24,238 bases of DNA, taken from IMG/VR virus record IMGVR_UViG_3300043446_001541, positions 1 to 24,238 of that record; one strand, given 5' to 3'. This document shows positions 5,135 through 24,238 of the stretch, in pieces. Both the position numbers and the translations under genes were made by a program. The notes beneath the pieces are model-generated. The model worked only from the letters and a program-made list of their open reading frames with translations, ran no database searches and had not been told where the DNA came from. The stretch is from a virus. The first letter of the stretch is position 1, and the number at the start of each line of letters is the position of its first letter.

Positions 5135-5842
5135 ATGCAATTCTTAGAATTCGAAGAATCGATCAAACCAGTAGTCTATCACGACAAATTAAATCCTAAA
5201 ATATGGAACGGCACTTCACTAGACATAGAAGTGCGATACAAGTTAATGGCAATAGCCATGCACTTTGCTAAGTTCCTAAATGTATCAAAATTAAATCTTA
5301 GAGACATTACACTAAGTGGCTCTAATGCTAGCTTTGGTTATAGCGACAGCAGTGACATTGATCTGCATTTAGTTGTTGACGTACCTAAAGACAAACCCGA
5401 GTTACCCGAGCTTTACACAGCTAAAAAGAACGAATACAACTTTACACACGATATCAAAATTAAAGGTATCGATGTAGAGTTATATGTACAAGATGTACAA
5501 CAAGTGCATCGTTCAGCTGGAATCTATTCTGTGTTAAACGATCGTTGGCTCAGTAAACCTAAACACCAACCGCCAACAATTAACGATCAAGATGTTAAAA
5601 GTAAAGCTCGAAATTATGCCGCAAGAATCAATGCCGCAATGCGCTCAAATGACTTAAATACTTGTAAAGAAGCTATGGCTGAAATTCGAAGACTACGTCA
5701 AACTGGTCTTGAACAAGGCGGAGAGCATTCAGTAGAAAATTTAGCCTTTAAGCTGTTGCGTTCTAGAGGCAAGATTGACAAATTTAGAAAATTTATTAAC
5801 AAATTACAAAGTGCAGAATTGAGCCTTGGAGAACAAAAATGA
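5135..5842 (+). CDS. Nucleotidyltransferase-fold protein (second)
   Basis: This 235-residue protein carries the clearest nucleotidyltransferase signature in the window. Gly62-Ser63 is followed by Asp74-Ile-Asp76 in SGSNASFGY...SSDIDLHL, and the third acidic strand follows at GIDVELYV (Asp113). The C-terminal half is helical and basic. That is the arrangement of minimal nucleotidyltransferases and of tRNA- or antibiotic-modifying relatives. The start ATG has only a weak binding site; a late-like TGTAAATA lies at 5120-5127, eight bases upstream. The end overlaps the next gene by ATGA. The N-terminus (MQFLEFEE) resembles the short leader peptides of other proteins here. Substrate unknown. Confidence 0.75.
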   Translation: MQFLEFEESIKPVVYHDKLNPKIWNGTSLDIEVRYKLMAIAMHFAKFLNVSKLNLRDITLSGSNASFGYSDSSDIDLHLVVDVPKDKPELPELYTAKKNEYNFTHDIKIKGIDVELYVQDVQQVHRSAGIYSVLNDRWLSKPKHQPPTINDQDVKSKARNYAARINAAMRSNDLNTCKEAMAEIRRLRQTGLEQGGEHSVENLAFKLLRSRGKIDKFRKFINKLQSAELSLGEQK

Positions 5843-6702
5843 AAGTACAACAGATTGTAGGTGAACACAAGAAAGGTTTTAGAGCTAAGAAATATGCTCG
5901 TAAGCCTACTAATACTATTGCGCCTAAGAAACCAGAAGCTATCAAACCACAAGGTGCAGTTGCTCCAGGCGAAGATAAAAAGAAAATAAACGAAGCTCCG
6001 GGTGACGCTGAGTTGTTTGCCCAAGTCGATGCTTTAATGAAATCTAATCCGCAGTTCGCCGCAGAAGTTAAGTCAAGGCAATTATCATTAGTTAGAGGTA
6101 TTGGTCCTGATGCTCAACGACACAATGCACAAGTTATGCAACAGTATAGAGAACTAGTACAAAAGTACTCAGGCGGTGTAAAAGAAACTGCTCCGGGCGC
6201 TGTAGTTGGTAAAATTGCCGCAGTTAATCAAGCACAGGGTACTGCAAACATCACAGGTCCAGATGGTTCAACTAAGACTGTTGACGTATCTCAGCTAAAG
6301 CCAGGCGAAAATAATACAGTAACACTAAACACTCCAGACATTCAGCCAGGAACTACAGTTAATGCTGAAAAGAACATGGAAGAAGCTCCGGAGACTCCTT
6401 ATTATGTTGACAACAGTTCTGGAACACCAATGGCAAAAACAGGTGGTCGTGGACCGACACAGATTGTTGCAAGCACAAAATGGCAAGTAGTTACTCCAGA
6501 AATTGAAAAAGCAATTATATCACAAGGTTTCCGCAAAGTAACGTTACAGTTTAACAATAAACAGTTTGCAGGTTATGAAGGCGGCGATCAGAAGCTAGGT
6601 TCTAAGATCATTGTTAGTCCAGCAGATTTCCAAGCACTATCTGCTAGACCAGCACAAGAATCTAAAGAGCTAGACGATATTAGGAAACTATCGGGTCTAT
6701 GA
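5839..6702 (+). CDS. Unknown protein with basic leader and beta-rich core
   Basis: The 287-residue product begins with a basic Pro/Lys/Ala-rich segment (residues 1-50). It continues with a helical stretch (about 55-110), then a beta-rich domain at about 120-180 (VVGKIAAVNQAQGTANITGPDG is a KOW- or Sm-like strand pattern). The C-terminal domain ends in KELDDIRKLSGL. It has no Cys. The low-complexity, disordered linkers and late-type neighbours suggest a virion or capsid-internal protein. It is coupled by ATGA at both ends. I recognise no family, and the domain limits are by eye. Confidence 0.65.
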   Translation: MKVQQIVGEHKKGFRAKKYARKPTNTIAPKKPEAIKPQGAVAPGEDKKKINEAPGDAELFAQVDALMKSNPQFAAEVKSRQLSLVRGIGPDAQRHNAQVMQQYRELVQKYSGGVKETAPGAVVGKIAAVNQAQGTANITGPDGSTKTVDVSQLKPGENNTVTLNTPDIQPGTTVNAEKNMEEAPETPYYVDNSSGTPMAKTGGRGPTQIVASTKWQVVTPEIEKAIISQGFRKVTLQFNNKQFAGYEGGDQKLGSKIIVSPADFQALSARPAQESKELDDIRKLSGL

Positions 6703-6908
6703 AAGTTAGTGATCTAATTGACGATTTTAACATTTGGACAACAAATGAAGAAGCAGAGCTACTTAAGAAATTAAGTAGCCCTGTTAAATTGTCGCGCTTG
6801 AGCGAGCAAGAGCAATTCAAAGTTCAGGCCATGATCCGCAAAAGTTTGGTAACTAAGATAGGAATGACAGATCCTAGCGTAGTTGCAAATGAAACATACA
6901 AAAAATAA
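6699..6908 (+). CDS. 69-residue small protein, unknown function
   Basis: It starts with ATGA inside the previous gene and is predicted wholly helical. The N-terminus MKVSDLIDDF resembles the leader-like starts of its neighbours, and the middle (LKKLSSPVKLSRLSEQEQFKVQAMIRKS) is amphipathic. Translation is supported by coupling on both sides. Function cannot be read. Confidence 0.6.
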   Translation: MKVSDLIDDFNIWTTNEEAELLKKLSSPVKLSRLSEQEQFKVQAMIRKSLVTKIGMTDPSVVANETYKK

Positions 6909-7374: not shown

Positions 7375-8385
7375 ATGCAAATAAGAGAATTTTCCGCACC
7401 AGTTACTAGCAAGCAGATCAACGAAAGTCTTGCTAAAAAGTTTGGTTTTAAAATTAATTTAGAACAGTTTACAACAGAGCAACTTGAAGATGCTCGTAAT
7501 AAACTGCGTACAAAGATCAGTCAATTTGAAATGAATGAAAGTTTTGACTCTGTGCTAGAAAGCCCAGAATATCAAAAGACACGTATGTTCCTTGACTGTA
7601 TTAACGCAGAAATCATGGAACGCGAACAGCGTGTTGAAGAAGGCGTTTGTGATGACTGCGGTGAAAGTCCTTGCGAATGCGATCACGAAGATACTAACGA
7701 TAAAAAAGAATCAAAGATGGAAAGTAAAAGCTACACAGCATTTATTCGTAACCGCGGATCAAAACTATCTGTTCCAGACAGCTGGATCAATAGTGCTATT
7801 AAACGCATCGAACTAGGCGAATCAGATAGAGCAGAACTAAAGGCAGAGTTAAAATTACGTTACGATTTAAATGAATCACAAGCCAGCTGGATGTTACTAG
7901 AAGGCGAAGAAGACAAAGCTGAGATTATCATGGCTACTAAAGACATGGTTGACCGTATTACTGGTTGGCTAGAAGACGTTGCTGCCATGAAAGCTGAACA
8001 GCTATTAGAATTATTAGACTCTATAAGAGCTCAACAAGGTAGTGATGTTGCTCAACAATATCAAGAAGCAGTTAAACCTGCTTTAGAGGCAATTTACACA
8101 GCGTTAGAAACAAGTCGTCAGGGATTATCAGGCGCATTGGCAATTGTATCAGGCGGTGAGGCACCAACAATGGGCGCACCAGCAGGCGGTATGGGCGGTA
8201 TGGACCAGGCAGCGGCAGGGCTTGATGCAGAGGTTGGCAGTATTGCACCTCCTGCTCCAGGCGAAGAAGGCGAAATGCCAGGCGAAGAAGAAACACCTCC
8301 AGCTCCAGAAGTTGGTCGTGCAAAAAGAGAAAGCGTCGATTACAGCAGACGCTTAGGCCTACTACTAAACTCAAAAAAAAAGTAA
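7375..8385 (+). CDS. Candidate head/prohead-core protein; zero-frame product of a frameshift gene
   Basis: The 336-residue acidic protein has several parts. The leader (MQIREFSAP) is followed by an Asn/Glu-rich helix region. A Cys cluster (CDDCGESPCECDH, about 99-111) could bind zinc. A long amphipathic helix pair follows (about 175-260). The Gly/Met/Ala/Pro/Glu low-complexity tail (about 270-320) is followed by a basic end. This, plus its exact late promoter, recalls scaffold or core proteins of T4-like heads, but no family is firmly recognised. The last codons are AAA AAA AAG, then TAA, forming an in-phase A AAA AAG slippery site inside nine A. In the -1 frame translation would run on to 8711, giving 445 residues. 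Confidence 0.8.
   Translation: MQIREFSAPVTSKQINESLAKKFGFKINLEQFTTEQLEDARNKLRTKISQFEMNESFDSVLESPEYQKTRMFLDCINAEIMEREQRVEEGVCDDCGESPCECDHEDTNDKKESKMESKSYTAFIRNRGSKLSVPDSWINSAIKRIELGESDRAELKAELKLRYDLNESQASWMLLEGEEDKAEIIMATKDMVDRITGWLEDVAAMKAEQLLELLDSIRAQQGSDVAQQYQEAVKPALEAIYTALETSRQGLSGALAIVSGGEAPTMGAPAGGMGGMDQAAAGLDAEVGSIAPPAPGEEGEMPGEEETPPAPEVGRAKRESVDYSRRLGLLLNSKKK
8376..8382 (+). promoter_or_regulatory. Candidate -1 ribosomal frameshift site, A AAA AAG
   Basis: The heptamer is in the correct phase (codons 8377-8379 AAA and 8380-8382 AAG) and directly precedes the zero-frame stop TAA at 8383-8385. The same heptamer drives dnaX frameshifting in Escherichia coli. The -1 frame continues with GTA at 8382 and is open to 8711. 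Confidence 0.6.
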
Positions 8386-8395
8386 TTAGGGAAAC

Positions 8396-8431
8396 TGCGG
8401 ACCCCTTAGTTTTAACACTAAGGAGTCTGCA
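8396..8431 (+). other. Stem-loop downstream of the slippery site
   Basis: TGCGGAC (8396-8402) pairs with GTCTGCA (8425-8431), with one G-U pair. After a C/A mismatch, CCTTAGT (8404-8410) pairs with ACTAAGG (8417-8423) around a six-base loop, giving 14 bp. No T tract follows, so it is not a terminator. It begins 13 bases after the heptamer, somewhat longer than the usual 5-9. A second small hairpin (GGTGC/GCACC, 8451-8464) covers the region just before the ATG at 8466. Confidence 0.7.
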
Positions 8432-8465
8432 AGCAAGTGCTAATAATAAAGGTGCAGAAGCACCG

Positions 8466-8711
8466 ATGACTTGGCAAGCACTTAGTTCAATTGGCTCTTC
8501 AATGGGCGCACCTCAAGTAAACTACGACGGCTTTGCAGCCGCATGGGATTCTGAAGACGAAACCGGAATCTTGCATCAACTAGTCGATCGCTTTGACGCA
8601 AACGGTCTAGTTATTAAAACCAATAACAAAGATAATATGCCGCAACAAGGACAGCAACAAGCTGGCGAACTTGAAAAAATGGCTAAACGTGCTACAAAGT
8701 TAGGCAAATAA
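8466..8711 (+). CDS. C-terminal -1 frame extension of the 7375 gene (or separate 81-residue gene)
   Basis: From its own ATG this frame gives 81 residues (MTWQALSSIGSS...), with an acidic middle and a Gln/Lys-rich end. The ATG has no convincing ribosome binding site and a GGTGC/GCACC hairpin sits directly in front. The same frame, however, is open without a stop from the slippery site and reads naturally through the gap (VIRETADPLVLTLRSLQAS...). I therefore think it is mainly the 109-residue extension made by -1 frameshifting, with the ATG start as the alternative. An assembly that dropped one A from the homopolymer would look the same. Function unknown. Confidence 0.6.
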   Translation: MTWQALSSIGSSMGAPQVNYDGFAAAWDSEDETGILHQLVDRFDANGLVIKTNNKDNMPQQGQQQAGELEKMAKRATKLGK

Positions 8712-8715
8712 TATA

Positions 8716-8752
8716 TTGACAAATGGTGCAAGTGACTATATACTTGCACCAT
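8716..8752 (+). promoter_or_regulatory. Consensus sigma70 promoter overlapped by an 11-bp inverted repeat
   Basis: TTGACA (8716-8721), 17 bases, TATACT (8739-8744). The arms ATGGTGCAAGT (8723-8733) and ACTTGCACCAT (8742-8752) are a perfect inverted repeat with an eight-base centre covering spacer, -10 box and start point. The expected start is at or next to the A of the ATG at 8751. The repeat looks like an operator. Confidence 0.8.
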
Positions 8753-9470
8753 GACTCTCTTAACTTCAAAATATAACTATACTCCAATTAGCAGAGAGAG
8801 CGTTGAAGGCCGCCGCCTTTACGCTACTCCAGACGGTAGCAAAGTTCCGTCAGTAACAACAATACTTGATAAAACAAAACCACAAGAAAAGATCGAAGCG
8901 TTAATGCGCTGGAAAAAATCTGTGGGTGAAAAGAAAGCACAAGAAATTGTTACGGAAGCCGCAGGCCGCGGCACTAGAATGCACAAGTTCTTAGAAGACT
9001 ATATTACACTAGGAACATTAGCTGATCCAGGAACAAATCCCTACAGTAAACAAAGTCATGCTATGGCCAAGCATATCATTAGCGAAGGCCTTAAAAACGT
9101 TAACGAAGTATGGGGAGTTGAAGTTCCGTTATACTTTCCTGGTTTATATGCGGGAACTACTGATGGATGCGGATTACATCTAAATGATGAATCTATCCTA
9201 GACTATAAGCAAACTAATAAACCTAAGAAAGAAGAGTGGATTGAAGATTACTACTTACAATTAACTGCTTATGCTCTAGCACACAACGAAGTACATGGTA
9301 CAAACATACGCAAAGGTGTAGTCTTAATGTGTGTTAGCCCTAAGTTAAACGAACAGCTAATTATGACAGAAGAGCCTAAGTACCAGGAATTTATCTTAAA
9401 ACCAGAAGACTTTGGATATTGGGAAAAACGCTGGTGGGATAGGGTGGAGCAGTACTACCGAGAAAACTGA
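8751..9470 (+). CDS. PD-(D/E)XK exonuclease, RecB/Cas4-like
   Basis: The 239-residue enzyme shows the ordered motifs of RecB/Cas4-type nucleases. His78 is in RGTRMHKFLE. Asp138 is in YAGTTDG. Asp151-x-Lys153 is in ILDYKQTNK. The QxxxY motif is Gln170 to Tyr174 in YYLQLTAYALA. There is no Cas4-type C-terminal cysteine cluster, so no Fe-S cluster is expected. It should cut DNA with Mg2+, in recombination, repair or host DNA breakdown. It is transcribed from its own strong host-type promoter, apparently without a leader, and may be controlled through the overlapping palindrome. No cas genes are nearby, so a CRISPR role is unlikely. Confidence 0.85.
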   Translation: MTLLTSKYNYTPISRESVEGRRLYATPDGSKVPSVTTILDKTKPQEKIEALMRWKKSVGEKKAQEIVTEAAGRGTRMHKFLEDYITLGTLADPGTNPYSKQSHAMAKHIISEGLKNVNEVWGVEVPLYFPGLYAGTTDGCGLHLNDESILDYKQTNKPKKEEWIEDYYLQLTAYALAHNEVHGTNIRKGVVLMCVSPKLNEQLIMTEEPKYQEFILKPEDFGYWEKRWWDRVEQYYREN

Positions 9471-9498: not shown

Positions 9499-11283
9499 AT
9501 GGCAGTCGTGCAAATTAGCCGCATTCAAATCAGACGCGGCAAAGCCCAGAGCGGAACAGGAATCCCACAATTAGCCAGTGGCGAATTGGCATGGGCTCTT
9601 GATACCCAAGAACTTTACATTGGTAACGGAAGCGTTGCTGAAGGTGCGCCTGCTGTAGGTAACACTAAAATTATTACTGAGTTAGACCTTGGTGTAAACG
9701 GTAACATTCTTAACATTTTAAAGTACATTTATAAATCAACAGATACCGGTATACAAACAGGCCCGACTGCTAATGATCCTATCGAAAGAGGTATTCAAGA
9801 GCGTCTCGATGATCAAGTAAATCTAAAAGATTTCATCAGCGCAGATGATGTTAATAACAACGATTATACTGCATCGATACAACGTGCAATTGATCAGTTG
9901 TATGCTAACAACAATACAACACCTGCAAATGCTAACACAGCAGATGGTGTTAGAAATAGAGTAGTTTTAAATATCCCAGCCGGCATTTATCCTATTACTT
10001 CTACACTATTGATTCCTAGCTATGCTACAATTATTGGCGAAGGCCAAGATAAAACAATTATTCAATATTCTGGAAGTGATTCTATTGTTTCTTTTGTTAA
10101 CGATACAGACGTTAGTCTTAATTTAACACAGACAAAGCATGTTAAGATCAGCGGTATAACTTTTGAAACTGATTCAGCCAATGCGCCAGGCATCGAATTA
10201 ACATCAGTAAGAGATAGTGAGTTTAGCGATATTGCTATAGTTGGTAACTGGACTGGTTCTGGTTCTAATACTAGTAGCAAAGGACTATGGTTAGACGGAC
10301 ATAATATTGCGTTAACCTATTATGCAACTGAGCAAAATACTTTTAAAAATATTTCTATTACAAAGTTTTCTTATGCCGTTTATGCAAAACAAGATATTCG
10401 CGCAAACTATTTTAGTAATGTATATGTTGAAGACTGCCGCCAAGGATTTGTACTAGGTGGAGATTTCCAAATAGGTGATCAAAGCGGTGCAGGTACAGGA
10501 CAAACATATGGTCCTCGTGAAACATTTTTAAGCAATGCTAGATTTTATAATGTAAAACAACACGCAATTAATGTTTACAAAGGAACTGGTAACACTTTCA
10601 CAGACATTCAGTTAATCAACGTTGGTAACGACGGTGGTGGAAATCGCTTTGCTGCCTTTCCACAAATCTTTATTTGGCAAAACAATAATAAATTAACTGA
10701 AGGGAATGTTACAAAAAATATATTCTCCGACAGGTCATTTAATGATGCCGGCGATTTGTCTTATGTAGACAATGCACCTACGTTGGTTACTGTTCCTTAT
10801 ATACCTGAAGTTGCAGGTTATGGTGCTTACGACTCGTTTAGTTCAAAAGAAAGATCTGTAACTGGGACAACAACTTTATTCAATCTTGGTAGATTGCCGT
10901 TAAATTCGGACGATCAAGGAAACCCTACTGGTGTTATTCATTACACTATTGATTATCATTACACCAGTGACGGCTCTGGCGGATTCGAATTCAGCCGCAA
11001 AGGTGTGTTTAATATTGTTGCCAATTACGACAATCAAACTATACAGTATTCGGACGACTATGATTATCTTGGCTCCGATGTAACCTATACCGAAATGGGC
11101 ACCGGTAACGTTAGATATGTGTCACAGGCATTAGACTTACGTGCTACATTCCTCGATCAAAATAGCCAAGACTGGAGCTCAACCAATGACCCAGCTGGGC
11201 CAAAGAGCATAGGTTTTTGCTATTACAATCTGCTCAACGGTGATCAAGGCACGTTCACTTATAGCTACAAAGTCAGTTTCTAA
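9499..11283 (+). CDS. Tail fibre/spike protein with beta-helix
   Basis: The 594-residue protein begins with a module typical of phage fibre and tropism proteins (RIQIRRG...GIPQLASGELAWALDTQELYIGNG, residues about 8-43), which anchors such proteins to the virion. Residues about 110-410 hold the repeating short strands of a right-handed parallel beta-helix of the pectate-lyase type (VVLNIPAGIYPITSTLLIPS, HVKISGITFETDS and so on). A separate beta-rich C-terminal domain follows. GAGGA precedes the ATG. It probably forms a trimer that binds, and may cut, host surface polysaccharide; I cannot point to catalytic residues. The late box upstream fits a virion role. Confidence 0.85.
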   Translation: MAVVQISRIQIRRGKAQSGTGIPQLASGELAWALDTQELYIGNGSVAEGAPAVGNTKIITELDLGVNGNILNILKYIYKSTDTGIQTGPTANDPIERGIQERLDDQVNLKDFISADDVNNNDYTASIQRAIDQLYANNNTTPANANTADGVRNRVVLNIPAGIYPITSTLLIPSYATIIGEGQDKTIIQYSGSDSIVSFVNDTDVSLNLTQTKHVKISGITFETDSANAPGIELTSVRDSEFSDIAIVGNWTGSGSNTSSKGLWLDGHNIALTYYATEQNTFKNISITKFSYAVYAKQDIRANYFSNVYVEDCRQGFVLGGDFQIGDQSGAGTGQTYGPRETFLSNARFYNVKQHAINVYKGTGNTFTDIQLINVGNDGGGNRFAAFPQIFIWQNNNKLTEGNVTKNIFSDRSFNDAGDLSYVDNAPTLVTVPYIPEVAGYGAYDSFSSKERSVTGTTTLFNLGRLPLNSDDQGNPTGVIHYTIDYHYTSDGSGGFEFSRKGVFNIVANYDNQTIQYSDDYDYLGSDVTYTEMGTGNVRYVSQALDLRATFLDQNSQDWSSTNDPAGPKSIGFCYYNLLNGDQGTFTYSYKVSF

Positions 11284-16393: not shown

Positions 16394-16651
16394 ATGCCAC
16401 ACGGTGTTGCTAGAGCCGATAAAGACGTTGCAGGTTCTCGGGTTCTTATCAGAGGTTCAACAAACGTTTTTGTCAACAACACAGGTGCTGTCATGGCCAA
16501 TGATTCTGTGAACTCATCAGGTGTTATGGTCATTACGGGCTCAAACTCTGTCTTTGTAAACAACAAGCCTTTGGCTAGAGAAAGTGACGGCCTAGCCAAC
16601 GGCCAACTCATTACCACCGGTAGTACTAACGTTTTTTCAGAAAACAGTTAA
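16394..16651 (+). CDS. PAAR-domain tail-spike tip protein (T4 gp5.4-like)
   Basis: The 85 residues are one PAAR-type domain: MPHGVARADKD at the start, then three related strand repeats (VLIRGSTNVFVNN, VMVITGSNSVFVNN, QLITTGSTNVFSEN). Such proteins cap the central spike with a sharp cone, often metal-bound, that pierces the outer membrane. Length equals that of minimal PAAR proteins with no effector fusion. There is no clear binding site, so it is probably coupled to the upstream gene one base away. Confidence 0.88.
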   Translation: MPHGVARADKDVAGSRVLIRGSTNVFVNNTGAVMANDSVNSSGVMVITGSNSVFVNNKPLARESDGLANGQLITTGSTNVFSENS

Positions 16652-16982: not shown

Positions 16983-17288
16983 ATGAAGAAACTACTAGCA
17001 ATTACACTTTTAACAATTAGTTCAGCATCTTTCGCTGGCCCTTACCATCATCATGGACACTGGCGACACGGTGGCGGCAACTCTTGGTTTTGGGTTGCAC
17101 CAACGGTAATTGGGGGAGTAATTGGTTACGAAATTGCCCGTAACCAAACTCCTGTAGTTGTACAGCAACCTCCGGTTGTTATACAAAATCCACCTGTTGT
17201 TGTCCAACAAAATCAAAATTGTAGCCCTTGGACAGAAATCCAAAATCTAGATGGCACAATTACTAGAACAAGGACTTGTACTCAGTAA
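16983..17288 (+). CDS. Exported His-rich, Pro/Val/Gln-repeat protein
   Basis: GGGAGG precedes the ATG. Residues 1-18 are a classical Sec signal peptide (KKLLAITLLTISSASFA) with probable cleavage before Gly19. A histidine cluster (HHHGHWRHG, 22-31), a short glycine-zipper-like hydrophobic stretch (VIGGVIGYEIA) and three PPVV-type repeats follow. The C-terminal segment carries two Cys. Proteins like this are usually periplasmic or outer-membrane associated; the His cluster could bind metal. Its stop shares one base with the iscU start (TAATG), so the two are co-translated. It looks host-derived. Function is unknown. Confidence 0.75.
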   Translation: MKKLLAITLLTISSASFAGPYHHHGHWRHGGGNSWFWVAPTVIGGVIGYEIARNQTPVVVQQPPVVIQNPPVVVQQNQNCSPWTEIQNLDGTITRTRTCTQ

Positions 17289-17680
17289 TGGCTTATTCAA
17301 CCCAAGTTATCGACCATTATGAAAATCCTCGCAATGTAGGGTCATTTTCTAAAGACGAAGAAGGGGTTGGTACCGGAATGGTAGGTGCACCGGCTTGCGG
17401 TGATGTGATGAAACTTCAAATCAAAGTAAATACAGATGGAGTAATCACAGATGCCAAATTTAAAACGTATGGTTGTGGAAGCGCGATTGCGTCGAGTTCG
17501 CTCGTTACTGAGTGGCTCAAAGGACGGACACTTACTGAAGCGGAACAGATCAAAAATAGCGAAATTGCTACTGAGCTTGCCCTCCCCCCTGTTAAGATTC
17601 ATTGTTCAATACTTGCAGAAGATGCGATCAAAGCGGCCGTAAATGATTACCGTAACAGACACAGCCAAACAGAAAATTAA
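17288..17680 (+). CDS. iscU: Fe-S cluster scaffold protein IscU
   Basis: The ATG at 17288 gives 130 residues that match the Escherichia coli protein even in numbering: Cys37, Asp39, Cys63 and Cys106 bind the nascent cluster, and LPPVK at 99-103 is the motif by which HscA grips IscU. In the family it receives sulfur from IscS and passes [2Fe-2S] clusters to carriers. No iscS, hscB, hscA or fdx is in this window, so it must work with host partners. Codons in 17460-17640 look more G+C-rich than the neighbourhood, suggesting fairly recent capture. It is coupled upstream to the His-rich exported protein and overlaps iscA by 38 bases. Confidence 0.95.
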   Translation: MAYSTQVIDHYENPRNVGSFSKDEEGVGTGMVGAPACGDVMKLQIKVNTDGVITDAKFKTYGCGSAIASSSLVTEWLKGRTLTEAEQIKNSEIATELALPPVKIHCSILAEDAIKAAVNDYRNRHSQTEN

Positions 17681-17969
17681 AAAACTTCTTGAGCGCAGGG
17701 GTAAAGGTGTTGGTATCCGTCTAGGAGTTAAAACTACAGGGTGTAGCGGTCTTGCCTATACGTTAGAATATGTAGATGAATATACTTCTGAGCCAGGCGT
17801 AACTAACTTTGCCCAACCAGAATTTGTAGTGTTAGTTGATGCCAAAAGTCTAGTTTATATGAATGGACTTGTTGTAGATTGGGTTCGCAATGGACTCAAT
17901 GAAGGATTTGAGTTTAAAAATCCAAATGAACGAGATCGCTGTGGATGTGGCGAATCTTTTCGAGTATAA
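17643..17969 (+). CDS. iscA: A-type Fe-S carrier (IscA/ErpA family)
   Basis: The 108-residue protein has the three ligand cysteines of A-type carriers: Cys34 in TTGCSGLAY and Cys100-x-Cys102 in CGCGESF at the end. These proteins accept clusters from IscU and hand them to client enzymes, or donate iron. Length and motif spacing are normal. It lies 38 bases inside iscU in another frame, an unusually deep overlap. IscA, ErpA and SufA cannot be separated safely by eye; the position after iscU favours IscA. Confidence 0.92.
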   Translation: MITVTDTAKQKIKKLLERRGKGVGIRLGVKTTGCSGLAYTLEYVDEYTSEPGVTNFAQPEFVVLVDAKSLVYMNGLVVDWVRNGLNEGFEFKNPNERDRCGCGESFRV

Positions 17970-23838: not shown

Positions 23839-24238
23839 ATGAGCAAAATCATTGGTATTGACCTCGGCACCACAAATTCGTGTGTAGCCATTCTAGAAAA
23901 CGGTGTAGCTAAAGTTATTGAAAACTCAGAAGGCGCCCGTACAACACCCTCAATCGTTGCGTACACACAGGATGAGATCCTAGTTGGTGCTACCGCAAAA
24001 CGACAAGCAGTAACAAATCCAAAAAATACAATCTATGCGGCCAAGCGTTTGATTGGACGTAAGTTCGAAGAGCAAGCCGTGCAGAAAGATATTGACCTAA
24101 TGCCATACAGCATTATCAAAGCTGACAACGGCGATGCATGGGTACAAGTTGATGATAAAAAACTAGCCCCTCCACAGATTTCAGCAGAAGTTCTTCGTAA
24201 GATGAAGAAGACAGCAGAAGACTATCTTGGTCAAGAAG
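23839..24238 (+). CDS. dnaK: Chaperone DnaK (Hsp70), 3' end cut by window
   Basis: AAGGAG precedes the ATG. The 133 visible residues are the start of the Hsp70 ATPase domain: [15 protein letters not shown] (phosphate-1 loop), [32 protein letters not shown] and [20 protein letters not shown]. They are very close to proteobacterial DnaK as I remember it. The family binds unfolded peptides with DnaJ and GrpE, neither seen here. A late box stands upstream, and the other gene order is phage-like, so this is a phage-borne copy. Whether the substrate-binding domain is intact lies outside the window. Confidence 0.93.

Follow-up and report, generated by a model that had tools for sequence, protein, structure and literature searches.

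A run of nine adenines as a probable programmed −1 recoding site joining two virion proteins in giant freshwater phages

Introduction

Recoding of phage structural proteins and slippage on runs of A are both known. In T7 (gp10A/B), T3, Lactobacillus phage A2 and Listeria PSA, a structural protein is made in a short form and in a form extended at its C-terminus through the −1 (or +1) frame; the proteins concerned are major capsid or tail-tube proteins. The gpG/gpGT pair of phage lambda is likewise a programmed −1 extension in a morphogenesis gene, in this case of tail chaperones encoded beside the tape measure gene. In bacteria, Shigella spa13, Citrobacter rodentium tssM1 and Thermus dnaX carry 9–11 A, give rise to short and long forms and have stops of other frames nearby; the extension of spa13 comprises 112 aa. 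Nine A slip efficiently in vivo (PMC5009743), and a 9-A run of conserved length among homologues is very likely to reflect purposeful transcriptional slippage (Baranov et al. 2005, PMC1088944). In retroviruses, the Gag-Pol fusion made by a slip can bring a minor partner into the particle at a set ratio.

An ordinary gene pair is the closest counterpart of the locus described below. RaK2-like jumbo phages share the gene order structural gene 27, structural gene 28, exonuclease, nrdA, the pair being represented by 121Q 27/28, CBB_298/299, GAP32_293/294 and RaK2 gp400/gp399. Mass spectrometry of CBB virions recovered 10 peptides of CBB_298 and 2 of CBB_299 (PMC5259590), which we identified as genes 27 and 28 from the constant offset in gene order (helicase 291, nrdA 303). 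In nine outgroup phages, the two genes are separate ORFs, 8–28 nt apart and in varying relative frames, and their junction contains an ATG and no long A run.

The locus studied here lies on a stretch of 24,238 nucleotides, called the window throughout. It is a fragment from the record of an uncultivated virus in a large clade of giant freshwater phages. Like the T7 group, it is predicted to yield a structural protein in a short and a C-terminally extended form, but the protein is a virion protein other than the major capsid protein, the site is A9 and the added domain is a different one. It shares the long A run, the two predicted products and the nearby stops with spa13, tssM1 and dnaX; unlike these bacterial genes, it encodes a virion protein of a phage and has both an in-phase ribosomal heptamer and a selected hairpin on the 3′ side. 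The proteins are unrelated to those of lambda, and the locus does not lie between a major tail protein and a tape measure gene. An earlier note on this DNA had rightly set the tail chaperone frameshift apart as a different setting, as the genes around this locus encode virion proteins, an exonuclease and NrdA. With the RaK2-like pair the window shares gene order, a homologous N-terminal protein and the length and position of the extension. Both RaK2-like proteins are found in CBB virions. The first protein of the window carries about 150 additional N-terminal residues, and in the window clade the second protein appears to have no start of its own and to be reached only by slippage.

Materials and Methods

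Relatives were gathered with the 336-aa protein and with alignments, at 80 loci per scan, and up to 587 relatives were matched. Readable 3′ ends were available for 354 loci, 352 of which belong to the window clade; the other two were taken as the outgroup phages 121Q and XaC1 because their gene ends match. The clade set comprised 89 distinct extensions and 71 lineages less than 75% identical. Since many contigs were retrieved twice, lineages and not loci served as the unit of counting.

Results

Relatives and gene neighbourhood

INPHARED held no direct match to either protein (tblastn) or to the region (blastn), and the GTDB genomes searched contained no relative. Both a gp23-like major capsid protein and a gp20-like portal are encoded in four of seven large relatives, which marks the group as T4-related tailed phages, the window itself being a fragment. 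The link to RaK2-like phages surfaced with a consensus query of the N-terminal protein (E 0.3–4) and was later confirmed by profile comparison and synteny. The two genes framing the region are:

7375–8385, plus strand: zero-frame gene of 336 aa, homologue of a RaK2-like virion structural protein (121Q gene 27, CBB_298, GAP32_293)
8751–9470, plus strand: exonuclease gene, conserved as the next gene downstream (121Q gene 29; phrog_298, E 8e-50; blastp 44% to 121Q gp29, E 5e-57)

Window proteins match 121Q in the same order, namely gp27 (blastp E 1.5e-8; hhalign E 2e-8), the exonuclease and NrdA (E 1e-68). The 336-aa protein also matches PHROG 14154 (head and packaging, E 7e-12), so that homology and gene order place it in the 121Q gene 27 family (phrog_14154) and its correspondence to gene 27 of RaK2-like jumbo phages is, as far as sequence can tell, firm. 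We call it a virion protein on account of the mass spectrometry of the homologues CBB_298/299 and the PHROG match. The structure of this N-terminal protein is mostly helical and gave no useful fold match. In Agrobacterium phage Atu_ph07 (3393–5708 of locus L362), the gene 27 homologue has 771 aa, including a long C-terminal region that the other phages examined lack, and is followed by a separate gene 28-like ORF.

Several other genes of the window deserve mention. Directly after the exonuclease gene lies a putative tail fibre (9499–11283) that combines an Mtd_N-like N-terminus with a pectate-lyase-like domain. A small PAAR-motif protein (16394–16651) is probably a spike tip. Overlapping IscU/NifU-like (17282–17680; PF01592, E 1.5e-51) and IscA-like (17643–17969; PF01521, E 4.6e-19) iron-sulphur assembly genes follow, and the start of an Hsp70/DnaK gene (23839–24237; PF00012, E 6.6e-54), cut by the contig end, is a possible clue to the host.

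The junction and its conservation

Direct reading shows that the zero-frame gene ends in TCA (8371) AAA AAA AAG TAA, in agreement with the earlier note, with the following elements:

8373–8381, plus strand: slippage site of nine A, with A at all nine positions in 71/71 lineages; the next base is G 8382
8376–8382, plus strand: heptamer A AAA AAG in exact −1 phase, replaced by A AAA AAA in 7/71 and by A AAA AAC in 6/71 lineages
8383–8385, plus strand: zero-frame stop TAA directly after the site (TAA in 70/71 lineages, TAG in 1/71)
8382–8711, plus strand: −1-frame extension of 109 aa, in the position held by gene 28 of RaK2-like phages (CBB_299, GAP32_294)

A second in-phase heptamer, A AAA AAA at 8373–8379, overlaps the first. 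Conservation of the heptamer in relatives, proposed as a check, was found throughout: an X XXY YYZ heptamer (A AAA AA[G/A/C]) stands in −1 phase in all 71 lineages. The run has nine A in most lineages and 10–11 where the base following it is A; this base is G in 58 lineages, A in 7, C in 6 and T in none. Thus, AAG outnumbers AAA by 58 to 7 at the site, against a lysine codon usage of 0.67 AAA and 33% AAG in the same genes. The first A of the run is the synonymous third base of TCA, a codon accounting for 68% of TCN, and is A in 71/71 lineages; it lies outside A AAA AAG and inside the second in-phase heptamer. At the level of loci, all 352 of the clade have at least nine A, then G, A or C, then TAA or TAG at the gene end, and the extension is in the −1 frame wherever this could be scored. 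The recurrence of A9[G/A/C]TAA/TAG with a −1-frame extension at every clade locus examined excludes a chance origin. Outside this site, 628 kb of sequence from these phages contain no run of at least nine A, compared with about 21 expected under a fourth-order Markov model; T runs of at least nine show the same trend weakly (0 versus about 3). The site, its frame, its universality and the avoidance of such A runs elsewhere are firm at the level of sequence.

A selected downstream frame

Translation confirmed that the −1 frame is open from the site to 8711. The 109 extension residues are encoded by 8382–8708 and followed by a stop at 8709–8711, so that two products of 336 and 445 residues (336+109) are predicted, as before. 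Extension dN/dS has a median of 0.17 (range 0.04–0.40; Nei-Gojobori, 44 pairs), which indicates that the extension evolves as a protein under selection. The in-frame conserved site combined with an open, protein-selected downstream frame strongly indicates a programmed recoding site, by whatever mechanism. Conserved residues begin at the junction (E4, P8, L9 and L13 in window numbering) and lie upstream of the ATG at 8466.

The extension occupies the place of gene 28 (~110 aa), between gene 27 and the exonuclease gene. HHalign compared it with gene 28 at a probability of 4–21%, and its best score of 24.1 exceeded all 200 column shuffles (maximum 19.6). Position, length and this weak profile score together lend moderate support to a correspondence with gene 28. 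Pfam and PHROG returned nothing credible for the extension. An AlphaFold2 model (pLDDT 73) has the helix-strand-helix-helix-strand-strand order of winged helices; as Foldseek matches were weak (best E 0.17), no fold is claimed. The earlier statement that a C-terminal domain is added to a probable capsid-internal protein holds for a C-terminal domain on a virion protein; the capsid-internal location is presumed.

Hairpins around the site

Two downstream structures were considered:

8396–8431, plus strand: RNA hairpin of 14 bp with one 1x1 mismatch, starting 13 nt after the heptamer; selected
8451–8464, plus strand: second hairpin before ATG 8466; folds, weakly conserved

The first hairpin folds as had been claimed. 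A 108-nt fold in the window scored z = −5.0 against dinucleotide shuffles. Over the 71 lineages, 45-nt windows about 10 nt past the site had a mean of −13.3 kcal/mol, compared with −5.4 kcal/mol for synonymous −1-frame codon shuffles; the signal (mean z −2.8) was gone by a start at +28 nt, and a hairpin of −8 kcal/mol or lower was present in 62/71 lineages. Covariation was 0.218 versus 0.113 in shuffled alignments (0/500) and at most 0.155 in slid structures, in a 48-lineage alignment that leans towards structure because lineages with clearly different stem placement were left out. These data argue firmly for a real hairpin selected beyond its codons. Its conservation in relatives holds for selection and covariation, and not for distance, as the stem starts 3–28 nt from the heptamer. 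The usual spacing of a frameshift stimulator is 5–9 nt, with 11–14 nt also known (PMC5009743), and so variable a spacing does not fit a classical stimulator; neither polymerase nor ribosomal slippage accounts for it. An enclosing lower stem that would shorten the spacer was rejected, since pairing within the spacer was not above expectation. Rfam gave no match.

The second hairpin, described earlier as shielding the ATG at 8466, does fold in the window; at its distance the signal in relatives is weak (mean z −0.7) and the position of the ATG is not conserved, so that this hairpin is probably not part of the device. Upstream of the run, a modest signal was seen (mean z about −1.1), and a 5′ nascent hairpin stimulating polymerase slippage was discarded because the lineages shared no common structure and had no hairpin consistently placed immediately 5′ of the run. 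One lineage (L267) has the longest run, 11 A (CAA AAA AAA AAA TAA), and is the only one of the 71 that lacks a predicted hairpin; slippage may be stronger there and manage without a stimulator.

Closure of the third frame

The third frame is closed immediately after the site:

8387–8389, plus strand: +1-frame stop TAG; a +1 stop occurs within 5 codons in 71/71 lineages

The expectation for closure within 5 codons is 68%, with a maximum of 83% in 200 synonymous simulations, and control stretches further downstream showed no comparable excess. At wobble positions where T makes a +1 stop, T and C stand at 71:1 against a background of 2945:1903 (61% T), and beyond the first +1 stop the ratio returns to 80:57. 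The T:C bias and the excess of stops indicate that selection removes +1-frame products.

Candidate processing motifs

Two short motifs resemble prohead-protease sites:

7417–7425, plus strand: I-N-E codons (residues 15–17, [L/I]NE), possibly a prohead-protease site ending a capsid-targeting leader
8385–8393, plus strand: I-R-E codons in the −1 frame, an [ILV]xE motif at the junction and a possible protease cut site

N16 and E17 are invariant (49/49), and [LI]NE[SNG] occurs in 65/71 lineages. An [ILV]xE lies within the first 14 extension residues in 70/71 lineages compared with 2.4% of other windows, the strict form [IL]xE just after the junction in 36/71; in the gene 28 proteins of RaK2-like phages, an ITE or LTE stands close to the N-terminus. 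The conserved E after the junction also helps to form a +1 TGA, so that its conservation has two possible causes. Similar short leaders (MKV/MQ... then acidic), resembling capsid-targeting leaders, begin the products of 480–884, 5135–5842, 5839–6702, 6699–6908 and 7375–8385. Among the leader-bearing neighbours, one has HExxH and one is nucleotidyltransferase-like (GSNASFGYSDSSDIDLHL); these genes are possibly a set of head-packaged proteins.

Discussion

We conclude, with a probability of roughly 0.86, that programmed −1 recoding at A9[G/A/C] joins two virion proteins. Part of expression would slip by one base before the stop and continue in the −1 frame, so that the 336-aa virion protein would be accompanied by a rarer fusion of 445 aa that carries the second domain. 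Any product entering the +1 frame would end after a few more residues and be much like the short form. The earlier reading stands as to a programmed −1 event, whose machine may be RNA polymerase at least as well as the ribosome. A mainly transcriptional event comes close to even odds, joint action of polymerase and ribosome and a mainly ribosomal event are each possible at distinctly lower odds, and anything else is improbable.

If slippage were purely transcriptional, RNA polymerase would add one A to part of the transcripts, which would then be translated normally. We give this account a substantial chance, somewhat short of even. A run of at least nine A that is conserved, and avoided elsewhere, fits transcriptional slippage; both other frames are closed, and Shigella spa13, Citrobacter tssM1 and Thermus dnaX provide precedents (PMC5009743, PMC4256274). 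Selection for +1 stops is to be expected if polymerase slippage yields transcripts with 8 or 11 A. However, a downstream RNA hairpin cannot affect polymerase at the A run, which leaves the selected 3′ hairpin without a role, the 5′ side offers no consistent hairpin in its stead, and the strong AAG bias would have to be explained solely as avoidance of A10.

A purely ribosomal event, in which tandem tRNA-Lys slips on A AAA AAG (or A AAA AAA) and the hairpin and a slow stop act as stimulators, seems rather unlikely to us. It accounts well for the in-phase heptamer in all lineages, for the strong, covarying stem-loop and for the preference for AAG over AAA against genomic usage, which agrees with the known preference of −1 slippage. 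It does not explain why nine A are invariant when heptamers need six or seven, nor the avoidance of such runs elsewhere, and A AAA AAC in six lineages, the unusual stem distances and the selected +1 stops speak against it. As ribosomes may slip two bases on A9, and such −2 slips could have caused selection for +1 stops, the latter are compatible with a ribosomal mechanism. Taken together, the +1 stops and the absence of A runs elsewhere somewhat favour RNA polymerase slippage, by which some mRNAs would gain an A; the polymerase may act alone or together with ribosomes slipping on A AAA AAG. We lean to this without claiming it, and some ribosomal slippage probably accompanies that of the polymerase.

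Independent initiation of the extension, from ATG 8466 or another internal start, is very unlikely, even though RaK2-like phages encode the counterpart separately, from an ATG of its own. Conserved residues precede 8466, the Met itself varies among relatives, an ATG is missing from the first 45 extension codons in 20/71 lineages, and an SD-like site precedes any start in only 5/71; the start-codon and SD evidence largely refutes a start at 8466. Loss of one A from a ten-A run in assembly or sequencing, the main rival in the earlier note and conceivable because homopolymers are error-prone, is refuted by the recurrence of this run and this break of frame, amid diverging flanks, in hundreds of contigs assembled from many metagenomes, and by the selection on the +1 stops and hairpin, and has a negligible chance.

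Programmed −1 recoding at the A run may also serve delivery into the head. Internal proteins of T4 reach the core by means of a capsid-targeting leader, and the prohead protease trims them (PMC5694885). The fusion of the window clade would ride into the prohead on the leader of the first protein, and the frequency of the slip would set the proportion in which the particle receives the two proteins. The T4 protease gp21 cleaves after [LI]xE. Cleavage at the [ILV]xE of the junction may follow, and it is possible, albeit doubtful, that the second protein is freed inside the head in a Gag-Pol-like manner, with the slip rate setting the ratio. Gag-Pol has no homology to the window, and the sole pointer to cleavage here is the [ILV]xE motif. 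Just as tentatively, the second gene of the relatives, with its leader-like start and [IL]TE at the matching place, would be replaced by slippage in the window clade.

The comparison with RaK2-like phages suggests that a decoding slip has taken over the role of an ordinary gene start found in better-known relatives. In the open-access papers searched, we did not find T4-related jumbo phages in which a pair linked by slippage stands in place of two separate genes. In hundreds of contigs, gene callers will return one gene cut short and a second that is either wrong or absent. Use of RNA polymerase slippage by a phage becomes testable, the productive cases in the literature searched being bacterial genes, IS elements and RNA viruses. 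The reference phage collection yielded no isolate of this group, in 71 lineages of which the recoding is invariant. Two genes with ordinary starts, set beside a pair linked by slippage, offer a natural experiment on why viruses recode, be it for stoichiometry or for co-delivery.
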